Source: Selenomonadales bacterium
GTDB lineage: Bacteria; Bacillota; Negativicutes; Sporomusales; UBA7701
Length of the DNA stretch: 64,000 bases
Direction of reading: 5' to 3'
NCBI GenBank assembly: GCA_029975165.1
Contig: JARKPR010000024.1
Coordinates: 1 to 64,000 of the forward strand
Position 1 is the stretch's first letter; the number at the start of each line of letters is the position of its first letter. The notes under the pieces were generated by a model. The model saw only the letters and a list, made by a program, of their open reading frames with translations. It made no database searches and was not told the origin of the DNA. This document shows positions 20,871-54,272 of the stretch, in pieces. The position numbers and the translations under genes were made by a program.

Positions 20871-21272
20871 TTATTCGGTTCCGGCCGGTTTATTTTCCCG
20901 TGCTTTCTTGTCCTGCCGGTAGGACGACCAGAACATCTGGATGCTCATTAAGGCGAAGAAGGCGCTGAACAGTTTGCGCAGCACCACGTCGGCGGTGATG
21001 TTGGCGATGTAGGCGCCGGCCAGGCCGCCGAGGATGATGCCGACCGCGAGGTACGGGGCGTGGTTGTAGTCGATGAGGCGGTTGCGGTGGTGCTTGAGGG
21101 CGCCGACGACGGCGGTGGGGATCATGGCGGCGATGGCGGCCGCCTGGGCGGCATGCTGGGGGACGCCGAGGAAGAAGACGCCGGCGGCGACGAAGATGGC
21201 CCCGCCGCCGATGCCGAGAAGGCCGCTGAGGATGCCGGTGACCACGCCGGTGAGGATGGCGATGGCGATCAT
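20871..21272 (-). CDS. half-size TSUP family permease, second half
   Basis: This 133-residue membrane protein has three to four helices and the TSUP signature LTGVVTGILSGLLGIGGGAIFV. Full TSUP (TauE/SafE) proteins are about 250 residues with two such repeats, so this is one half. The start overlaps the stop of the other half gene by 4 bp (ATGA). The charged C-terminus (RQDKKARENKPAGTE) should be cytoplasmic. It probably works only with its partner. Confidence 0.8.
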   Translation of the reverse strand: MIAIAILTGVVTGILSGLLGIGGGAIFVAAGVFFLGVPQHAAQAAAIAAMIPTAVVGALKHHRNRLIDYNHAPYLAVGIILGGLAGAYIANITADVVLRKLFSAFFALMSIQMFWSSYRQDKKARENKPAGTE

Positions 21273-21625
21273 GCGCTCCACCCCATTCTGATCGCCATGG
21301 CGAGCGCCAGTACGGCAAAGATGCGTTTGAGGACGGCCGGCCGCACCCTGGGCAGCAGCAGCGCGCCGATGTAGGCCCCGGCCATGCCGCCGATGGCGAA
21401 CAGGACGGCGAGGGTGAGGTCGAGCTGGCCGAAGGAGTTGTAGACGAAGGCGCTCATCACCGCGCCGGGGATGATGACCGCCAATGAGGTGGCGTGGGCG
21501 GAATGCTGGGAGAGGCCGAGGAAGTAGACGAGGCACGGCACGATGACGATGGCGCCGCCGATGCCGAGCAGCCCTCCTACCGTCCCGCCGAGGACGCCGA
21601 TCAGGATTGCTTTTGTTTTGTTCAC
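21269..21625 (-). CDS. half-size TSUP family permease, first half
   Basis: This 118-residue membrane protein has the matching TSUP half signature GVLGGTVGGLLGIGGAIVIVP and three further helices. The stop codon is a true in-frame stop, coupled to the next half, so the family fold is made from two chains. TSUP carriers move sulfite, sulfonates or other anions; the substrate is unknown. Confidence 0.8.
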   Translation of the reverse strand: MNKTKAILIGVLGGTVGGLLGIGGAIVIVPCLVYFLGLSQHSAHATSLAVIIPGAVMSAFVYNSFGQLDLTLAVLFAIGGMAGAYIGALLLPRVRPAVLKRIFAVLALAMAIRMGWSA

Positions 21626-21767
21626 TGGCCACCTGCTTTCTAGTGTTCTGTGGACTGCTTGTTATATATTCCCCGCCGGAGGGATTTTTCCTTGAAAGGA
21701 GGCCTGGCGAAGCTAAGTTTTCTAACCCCGTCCCAGGACTAATTTCCTATGGCGGCAAAAAGGGATA

Positions 21768-50506: not shown

Positions 50507-50878
50507 TTATCTGTGTTTGATGTGTTCGATGCCCTGGGCGAGCAGGATGGCGATGTGTTCGTCGTCGAGGGAATACCACACTACCCTGCCGTCGCGGCGG
50601 TACTTCACCAGCCTGGCTCCCCGCAGCAGCCGCAGCTGATGGGAGATGGCCGACTGGCCCATGCCGACGGCGGCGGCGATGTCGCACACGCACAGTTCGC
50701 GGCGGGAAAGGATCTGCAGCATTTTCACCCGCGTCGGGTCGCCGAGGATTTTGAACGTGGCCGCCAGTTCCCGGGCGTCGGCTTCGGGCAGGGCTTCGGC
50801 CCGAGCGGCGCGAATGGACTCGGGGTGCAGACAGGTTTCTTCGCAGACGGCGTTGTCGATGGCGGTCATGGCATTCAC
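50507..50878 (-). CDS. ArsR/SmtB-family metal-responsive repressor
   Basis: This 123-residue winged-helix protein has RELCVCDIAAAVGMGQSAIS, whose CxC in helix 3 with N-terminal Cys residues (CEETC) fits a CadC-type Cd/Pb site. The C-terminus has DEH, ten residues, then HIKH, which matches the zinc site of SmtB/CzrA in helix 5. It should release DNA when metal binds and so induce the P-type ATPase downstream. ATG 50878 is close to GGAG; ATG 50869 has better spacing. Confidence 0.88.
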   Translation of the reverse strand: MNAMTAIDNAVCEETCLHPESIRAARAEALPEADARELAATFKILGDPTRVKMLQILSRRELCVCDIAAAVGMGQSAISHQLRLLRGARLVKYRRDGRVVWYSLDDEHIAILLAQGIEHIKHR

Positions 50879-50887
50879 TCCAATATA

Positions 50888-50901
50888 TGATCATGTGTTC
50901 A
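50888..50901 (-). promoter_or_regulatory. candidate ArsR/SmtB operator
   Basis: tgatcatgtgttca is a 6-2-6 dyad with one mismatch, resembling SmtB/CzrA operators built on TGAACA/TGTTCA. It lies just upstream of the repressor gene. Confidence 0.55.
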
Positions 50902-50968
50902 TGTATTTATTTTATATGGTTCCCGTGCCGCCGTCAATATCTTTTAGGCCTCCAAATCGAAAGGAATT

Positions 50969-51007
50969 TGGCGAACTATGTCGAAAGTGTAATTTATGGA
51001 ATAGTAT
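50969..51007 (+). promoter_or_regulatory. tandem Spo0A boxes and promoter of the chemoreceptor gene
   Basis: TGGCGAA (50969-50975) and TGTCGAA (50979-50985) both match the 0A box TGNCGAA and are 10 bp apart in the same orientation, as in known tandem sites. The second overlaps a -35 position, with TAGTAT (51002-51007) 17 bp on. Confidence 0.5.
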
Positions 51008-51063
51008 GAATGTTTTTCCACGACCCTGCCATAGACCATACATCCCGGAAGGAGCTGACCGTT

Positions 51064-52779
51064 TTGCAGTTGTTCAAGAACCTGAGCATCGCCAAGAAGC
51101 TTTTCGTCCTGGTATTTGTAGCGGCCTTTTTCGTCGCCGCCGTCGCCGTTACCGGCTATTATTTCCTGATGCAGACGAATGCGGTGATGCAGGGCCTCGA
51201 CCAGAATGAGCTCAAGGCCGTAAAGTTGATCGGCGAGATGCAGGCCGACGTTAGGTCCGCCCAAGCCACGGCCACGGAATATCTGCTGATTGCCGACGCC
51301 GAACGCCGGGTGAAACTGCAGGCCGATCTGCATGCCCGCGCCGCTCTTATCGACCAGTCCCTCACCGCGCTCGGCGAGACCAACCTCAGCGAGGAGCAGC
51401 GCCGTAACCTCGATCTCCTCACAACGATGTTGGGCAGCTACCGGGGCAACCGGGACATGGCGCTGAAGCTGGCGGACGATAAGCGTCTCAGCGAGGCCGT
51501 CCTCATCTATACCCACCAGTCCATCCCCGTCCTGGACGGCATCAACCGCCAGCTGACGTTCATCGCCGAGGAGTTCGACACAAACGCCCGCGAGGCCTAT
51601 GCGCGGAGCTCGCAGGACGTGACGACCGCCAGTATGATGCTGACCGGCATCGGCCTGGCGGCGCTGGTGCTCGTCCTCGTGCTCGGCCTCGCGATCGCCC
51701 GCATGGTGGCCAATCCGCTCAAGCAGGTGGCCGCGACCGTGGCGGACGTGGCCGCAGGCAACCTGCAGGCCAGGAGGGTGGCTGTCGATTCCCGCGACGA
51801 GGCTGGGCAGGTTGCGGCAGCGATCAATACTATGACCGAGAATCTCCGCAGCCTTATCAGGCAGGTGGCCGGATCGGCGGAACAAGTGGCGGCCTCGAGC
51901 GAAGAGCTGAACGCCAGCGCCGACCAGGCGGCGACGACGGCCGGCCAGGTGGCCGGGGCGATCACCAGCGTCGCCAACAGCTCCGCCACGCAGTTAAAGG
52001 CGGTGGAGGAAAGCTCGGCAGCCGTCGAACAGATGTCGGCCACCGTCGCGCAGGTGAAGGCCAACGCCGGCGTCGTCGCCACCACTTCCGTCCAGGCCGC
52101 CGAAACGGCCGAACAGGGCGCGGCCCAGATTTCCTCGGCCGTAAAGCAGATCGCCAATATCGAGAAGACGGTCGCCGATTCGGCCGAGATCGTGCAGACG
52201 CTGGGCAACCGCTCCAAGGAGATCGGCCAGATCGTCGATACCATTTCGAACATCGCCGGCCAGACAAACCTCCTCGCCCTCAACGCCGCCATCGAGTCGG
52301 CGCGGGCCGGCGAGGCGGGCCGCGGCTTCGCGGTCGTGGCCGAAGAGGTGCGGAAGCTGGCTGAGCAGTCCCAGGACGCCTCCAAGCAGATCGGCGAGCT
52401 GATCGGCGCCATCCAGGCCGACACCGACCGGGCCGTAGCCGCCATGCTGCAGGGGACGCGGGAGGTCAAGGTCGGCAGCGAGGTTGTCAACAGCGCCGGC
52501 CAGGCGTTCGGGCAGATCCTGACCGCCGTCAACCAGGTTTCCTCCCAGGCGCGCGAGATGTCGCAGGCCATTGTTCAGATGGCGGCCGGCAGCGAGCGGA
52601 TCGTGGGGGCGATGAAGGAGATCGACGCGGCGAGCAAGGCAACCGCCGCCGAAACTCAGACGGTGTCGGCCTCCACCGAGGAGCAGTCGGCGACGATGGA
52701 GGAGATCGCTGCCTCGAGCCAGGGCCTGGCCAGGCTGGCCCAGGATTTGCAAGCGGCCGTGCACAGGTTTACCGTTTAG
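51064..52779 (+). CDS. methyl-accepting chemotaxis protein
   Basis: This 571-residue receptor has a membrane helix near residues 10-33, a four-helix ligand domain of about 150 residues, a second helix near 190-212, a HAMP domain and a signalling coiled coil. The hairpin tip has [20 protein letters not shown] and [20 protein letters not shown]. It relays an extracellular signal to CheA/CheW. TTG 51064 has GGAAGGAG 9 nt upstream; an ATG at 51010 lacks a site. Tandem 0A boxes lie upstream. Confidence 0.88.
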
Positions 52780-52817
52780 AAAAATCATGCTAATATAGAT
52801 ATAGCGACAAATGGACC

Positions 52818-52850
52818 GAAGACCGCGACACCAGGCCGCGGTCTTCTTGT
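52818..52850 (+). terminator. intrinsic terminator
   Basis: A perfect 10-bp stem gaagaccgcg/cgcggtcttc with a 9-nt loop is followed by TTGTT. It ends the chemoreceptor gene. Confidence 0.75.
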
Positions 52851-52855
52851 TGGCG

Positions 52856-52987
52856 TTATTTCTCTTTGCTTTTGCCTTTATTGCCCGGCGACGAGGGACA
52901 CAATTCGGCGGCGAAATTCGCGAAGGCGTCGGGGCAGCTTTTGTTGGTGCTGCAATCGCAGCAGCCTGATTTGCTGAAATCAGCCAT
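52856..52987 (-). CDS. 43-residue Cys-rich protein
   Basis: An ATG at 52987 is preceded by GGGAGGTG 5 nt upstream and opens a 43-codon frame ending TAA. The peptide has CCDCSTNKSC and a later Cys (AAELC), then a Lys-rich tail. Five Cys in 22 residues suggest a metal-binding or redox mini-protein. No relative is recognised, but the ribosome site is strong. Confidence 0.6.
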   Translation of the reverse strand: MADFSKSGCCDCSTNKSCPDAFANFAAELCPSSPGNKGKSKEK

Positions 52988-54074: not shown

Positions 54075-54272
54075 GCCGATCACCTCCGCGTTATATTGTT
54101 TCCCGTTTTCGCCGGGGGAGAAGTATTTTCCTGTTAATACGACAGCGGGCGCGGCCAGCCGGGGGTGACGCTGAAAAATGTCTTGAAAAAAGGGCAGAAA
54201 TTTTTCGCAGTGGACTCTCAGTGACTTCTGGTGGACTAACCGGCAAAAAAGTGTGATATGATTATAGCGTGA

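Follow-up and report, generated by a model that had tools for sequence, protein, structure and literature searches.

Sigma-H promoters and Spo0A boxes in spore formers

Promoters read by sigma-H (Spo0H, SigH) follow the consensus RnAGGAwWW / RnnGAATww, and spo0A and spoIIA are textbook targets. The closest described counterparts of the promoter considered here are the SigH promoters of Sporomusa sphaeroides KIAC, a related diderm spore-former. There, the motif AGGA-17/18-GAAT stands at 322 mapped start sites, and the regulon comprises 322 genes, energy metabolism included, with enrichment in COG N (cell motility), among other categories (PMC12456013). The receptor promoter resembles these in the distance of 17 to 18 nt between AGGA and GAA, but reads GAAA where they read GAAT.

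A second point of reference is the Ps promoter of Bacillus subtilis spo0A, whose sigma-H -10 element is overlapped by the 0A4 box (PMC12090719). A 0A-box sequence over a sigma-H-type -10 is what the two sites have in common. However, the B. subtilis region has been footprinted and has three more boxes and a second promoter, whereas ours is a predicted promoter in front of a receptor gene.

Within the genus itself, the promoters of spoIIE and spoIIGA share the TGTCG core with the receptor site. Unlike that site, they carry a conserved TTGTCG well upstream of TAAAAT or TATAAT, and AGGA-17/18-GAA[TA] was absent from the 450 bases searched at ten spoIIE/spoIIGA loci. The TTGTCG elements before spoIIGA and spoIIE (L110-L118, L122) are likely the real 0A boxes of the clade, and they are mostly not TGTCGAA. 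None of the papers listed in a brief literature search was on sigma-H control of a chemoreceptor.

The chemoreceptor locus

The window, by which we mean the whole stretch of 64,000 nt analyzed, lies on contig JARKPR010000024.1 of a Selenomonadales bacterium, whose own genome (G000) measures 4.19 Mb. The site under study spans 50969-51007 and holds two heptamers spaced 10 bp apart, TGGCGAA (50969-50975) and TGTCGAA (50979-50985), just as the original prediction had reported. Comparisons were made with four other species of the genus (G001 to G004), giving five species with the window's own; receptor orthologs in these four have 69-74% protein identity. The features to which the text refers are as follows.

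50909-50937, - strand: divergent sigma-A-type promoter toward arsR, TTGACG-17-TAAAAT (consensus scan)
50960-50968, + strand: probable sigma-H -35 element AAAGGAATT, core AGGA at 50962-50965 (AGGA kept in 5/5 species; AGGAWW-GAA spacing rule of the genome)
50969-50979, + strand: promoter spacer of 11 bp containing TGGCGAA, the first box (TGGCGAA in the window only)
50979-50988, + strand: probable sigma-H -10 element TG-T-CGAA-AGT, of which GTCGAAAGT is 50980-50988 (TGTCGAA kept in 5/5 species)
50991-50996, + strand: predicted transcription start region (placed from the -10 position)
51049-51054, + strand: ribosome-binding site AAGGAG (read in the sequence)
51064-52779, + strand: chemoreceptor gene, 571 residues, TTG start

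The downstream gene had been called a chemoreceptor, and its Pfam matches (4HB_MCP_1, HAMP, and MCPsignal) bear this out: the architecture is a four-helix-bundle sensor followed by a HAMP and a signaling domain. Judging from the sequence, the gene most likely starts at TTG 51064, 78 bases past the second heptamer. This TTG is kept in all five aligned species, and AAGGAG precedes it in the orthologs too; an alternative, longer open reading frame of 589 residues runs from ATG 51010. The receptor is one of a large family, as evidenced by at least 32 matches to its protein in its own genome (33 of 91 candidates scored).

On the other side of the site, positions 50507-50937 contain a divergent arsR-family gene (NF033788), an AT-rich operator-like stretch, and the sigma-A-type promoter listed above. 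A P-type metal ATPase lies beyond arsR, as read from the translation. The arsR side is common to G002 and G004 and absent from G001 and G003; the probable receptor promoter, by contrast, is conserved throughout.

A conserved, probable sigma-H promoter upstream of the receptor

The DNA alignment of the five species contains a conserved island upstream of the receptor orthologs that consists of AGGA[AT]TT, a spacer, and TGTCGAA. In the window, this island takes the form of AAAGGAATT, an 11-bp spacer, and GTCGAAAGT, which is AGGA-17-GAA in outline. The conserved partner of TGTCGAA is thus AAAGGAATT (50960-50968), which the original prediction had overlooked. The upstream element reads AGGAATT in the window and AGGATTT in all four relatives, with 17 bases between AGGA and GAA everywhere but in G001, which has 18. 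When columns were counted over the four species of equal spacing (G001, with one extra spacer base, being left out), 17 of the 24 from AGGA to the last A were invariant; in the flanks, invariant columns numbered 8 of 53 on the upstream side and 2 of 40 on the downstream side. Moreover, 67-78 bases separate the island from the shared TTG start in all five species, whose flanking genes are partly unlike.

The downstream core GAA is likewise kept in five of five species, and the base that follows is A in the window, T in two relatives, and G in two. The last base of GAAT thus varies, which counts against the sigma-H reading, and the strict pattern AGGAWWN{15,16}GAAWW consequently does not match the receptor site.

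Taken with the genomic evidence below, these features indicate that the receptor gene very probably has a sigma-H-dependent promoter and that the two supposed Spo0A boxes most likely belong to an ordinary promoter of this kind. Sigma-H polymerase would contact AGGAATT as the -35 element and TG-T-CGAA as the -10 element, with 17 bases from AGGA to GAA, and transcription of the receptor would begin at about 50991-50996. Expression of the receptor would follow sigma-H activity, which classically sets in as growth gives way to starvation: as that activity rose at the end of growth, the gene would be transcribed and the receptor array would gain a sensor.

Such a mechanism differs from the one proposed originally, and it belongs to a promoter class already known, to which the receptor promoter would be an added member. 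It places the receptor gene in the predicted sigma-H regulon, and several receptors of the genus may be under sigma-H control. The original prediction would also have tied the chemoreceptor to entry into sporulation. A link to the transition phase survives by way of sigma-H, but its specificity for sporulation does not: in S. sphaeroides the SigH regulon spans 322 genes (PMC12456013), and with so broad a regulon the link would be one of transition phase or energy state, not of commitment to sporulation.

Three other candidates were considered and set aside. First, the spacer is not a specially conserved operator. At the receptor (four species), its 11 bases have a mean pairwise identity of 0.65, which is not exceptional beside 0.70 at spo0A (four), 0.48 at sepF (three), and 0.80 at phoH (four), in groups hand-picked from the genus pattern matches, with two phoH members chosen by spacer likeness alone; the phoH-side site in the window's species lies inside the preceding long frame. 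Second, a sigma-54 promoter was dropped on reading the alignment, in which no GG is kept at -24. Third, a small upstream open reading frame from ATGTCGAA was dropped on the same reading, as its peptides are unlike.

The sigma-H spacing rule in the genome and the genus

The own genome encodes sigH (TIGR02859, 377.1 bits against a cut-off of 294.8). The spacing of its presumptive targets was surveyed in 543 upstream regions drawn from 864 kb, about one-fifth of the genome, with rough gene calls made by our own script. In these regions, AGGAWW preceded GAAT 21 times at a spacing of 17 and 7 times at 18 (28 in total), compared with 0 to 3 times at every other spacing from 6 to 33. For GAAW at spacing 17 or 18, the count was 42 against a mean of 2.16 in 50 shuffles. 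GAAA and GAAG also peak at 17-18, less than GAAT, and GAAC does not; the GAAA of the window therefore fits a sigma-H -10 element. On the opposite strand the GAAW peak is smaller (9 at 17 and 4 at 18), as expected from divergent genes.

Across the whole of the own genome, AGGAWWN{15,16}GAAWW matched 248 times versus 18 times for the reversed control. Genes behind sigma-H-like sites include spo0A, spoIIAA, mreB, xerD, lpxC, yajC, and a zapA-like gene, the last of which matches its profile below the curated cut-off. The pattern modeled on the receptor site, AGGAN{13,14}TGTCGAA, occurs 107 times in the five genus genomes versus 18 times reversed, and the receptor promoter is matched in each genome. 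The own genome contributes 20 of these sites against 7 in the reversed control, so a part of the 20 may be fortuitous. A same-strand frame starts within 320 bases (the limit of the script) of every one of them, at 27-108 bases in 16 cases and at 149, 172, 206, and 257 bases in the remaining four. Among the genes behind these sites are spo0A, sepF, a GlmU-like gene, rpiB, ruvC, and purC, together with an HD-domain gene, a pilB-like ATPase gene, a motB-like gene, and the receptor.

The window holds two further strict sigma-H-like matches, at 21667-21692 and 54106-54132 (- strand). Shuffled versions gave a mean of 0.38, and 5 of 100 shuffles reached two. The first of the two precedes a rough gene call (21272-21625) by 42 bases.

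Resemblance of the sigma-H -10 element to a 0A box

To tally base preferences at the -10 element, the sampled upstream regions were allowed to reach as much as 30 bases into the gene before, which gave 61 sigma-H-like sites. Ahead of GAA, these prefer T, G, G or T, and C, so that the favored -10 element reads TG[GT]CGAA. This resemblance to TGTCGAA, combined with the species-peculiar TGGCGAA in the spacer, would explain the appearance of tandem 0A boxes at the receptor. The association also holds in the reverse direction. Among the matches listed (100 of 128), 27 copies of TGTCGAA have an AGGAWW no more than 30 bases upstream, and 15 of these show a gap of 13 or 14. In the sampled upstream regions, 6 of the 11 sense-strand TGTCGAA copies are sigma-H-like sites, one of them at a region edge. 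A perfect 0A-box core is consequently poor evidence for Spo0A control in these genomes when AGGA stands 13-14 bases upstream, because the favored sigma-H -10 looks alike.

A possible Spo0A box within the -10 element

The best-surviving alternative keeps sigma-H as the reader of the site and adds phosphorylated Spo0A, which would bind TGTCGAA over the predicted -10 element and tune transcription. We consider this composite unlikely. In its favor, TGTCGAA is a perfect 0A-box core, and all seven bases are invariant in the five species, more than sigma-H appears to need, which counts against sigma-H acting alone; the spo0A gene is also present in the own genome. Statistical support comes from several counts. 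TGTC precedes GAA at 6 of the 61 sigma-H-like sites versus 1.8 expected from single-base frequencies, and TG and C co-occur before GAA in the same 61-site upstream set (p = 0.043). TG is found in 8/34 cases with C versus 4/66 without it, and the base ahead of GTCGAA is T in 107 of 196 matches across the genus versus 18 of 83 reversed controls. Precedent exists as well, since footprinting in B. subtilis placed a 0A box across the -10 element of the spo0A sigma-H promoter; by that analogy, Spo0A could contact TGTCGAA at the receptor. However, the same source gives the overlapping B. subtilis box a minimal effect on the promoter (PMC12090719). Moreover, the single-base preferences already favor TG[GT]C, and a base other than C precedes GAA in 75 of 150 TGNNGAAW sigma-H-like sites, among the matches listed (150 of 258), so TG fits an extended -10 element without any 0A box.

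A broader form of the idea appears quite unlikely. In it, the genus possesses a set of sigma-H promoters, at genes for chemotaxis and cell division, HD-domain genes, and spo0A, whose -10 element encloses a Spo0A box, and Spo0A and sigma-H polymerase would share one set of seven bases. If such nested boxes were real, entry into sporulation would switch the chemoreceptor and the motB-like gene by direct competition or cooperation at the -10 element, and the spacer heptamer at these two motility genes would perhaps help.

The site at the motB-like gene (L032:1501-1525; contig C3 of the own genome, 20753-20777) carries TGCCGAA 10 bp before TGTCGAA. A double heptamer of this kind stands at 2 of the 20 own sites, those of the receptor and the motB-like gene, both motility-related, and of the 61 sigma-H-like sites sampled from 864 kb, the one at the receptor alone shows it. 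The motB-like site has no like form in the genus list of AGGAN{13,14}TGTCGAA matches.

The proposed tandem Spo0A boxes over a sigma-A promoter

In the original reading, Spo0A bound at the tandem boxes would switch on a sigma-A promoter whose -35 element overlaps TGTCGAA and whose -10 element lies at 51002-51007; this is now very unlikely. What recommends it is the pair of heptamers, which is locally unusual: TGNCGAA-N3-TGNCGAA occurs once in the window versus a mean of 0.01 in 100 shuffles. However, the pair does not behave as a repeated element genome-wide. Its full sequence, CGAANNNTGTCGAA, has 3 exact matches in the 4.19 Mb of the own genome, and with up to one mismatch there is no excess over the reversed control (58 versus 68).

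Conservation divides the two boxes. Of the bases in its box, Spo0A contacts G2, C4, and G5 (PMC3485338). The second box is kept throughout, as described above. At the place of the first, the four relatives read GCGCGAA, GCGCAAA, CCGCGAA, and GCGCAAA; the form TGNCGAA is therefore confined to one species of five, no relative has G at position 2, and two of the four lack it at position 5. As a 0A box, then, the first heptamer is lost in all four other species, the outcome that the original prediction had named as speaking against it.

The promoter elements fare no better. By hand count, the claimed -35 element TGTCGA agrees with TTGACA at 2 of 6 positions, and the claimed -10 element TAGTAT, 17 bp away, agrees with TATAAT at 4 of 6; in the four relatives, the hexamers at the corresponding distance agree at 5, 3, 2, and 0 of 6, so the -10 element is not kept. 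A sigma-70-type scan of 50850-52900 returned no + strand site, its single match being the - strand promoter toward arsR. Tandem boxes would also leave the conserved AGGA unexplained. With the first box and the hexamers unconserved, the features that are conserved are those of a sigma-H promoter.

It is just as improbable that neither regulator acts and the receptor gene is read from another promoter, the resemblance being due to chance: motifs of this length do arise randomly, as the 18 reversed matches in five genomes illustrate beside the 107 forward ones, but the island is conserved in five species at a similar distance from the same TTG despite partly unlike flanks.

Other receptor genes of the genus

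Sites of the form AGGA-TGTCGAA stand before two further receptor-type genes. In G002 (L103), such a site precedes a dCache-HAMP gene with a reading frame that extends into one of the matches to the receptor protein, and in G003 (L096), one precedes a dCache-HAMP gene of which the first part was covered. In the sampled 864 kb of the own genome, the sole other match to the receptor is a receptor-like gene of 282 residues (L143/L144; contig C26, 194679-195524, - strand), with 38.6% identity over 153 residues. Upstream of this gene are an AGGA-18-GAAA site and a separate TGTCGAA that has no AGGA in register.
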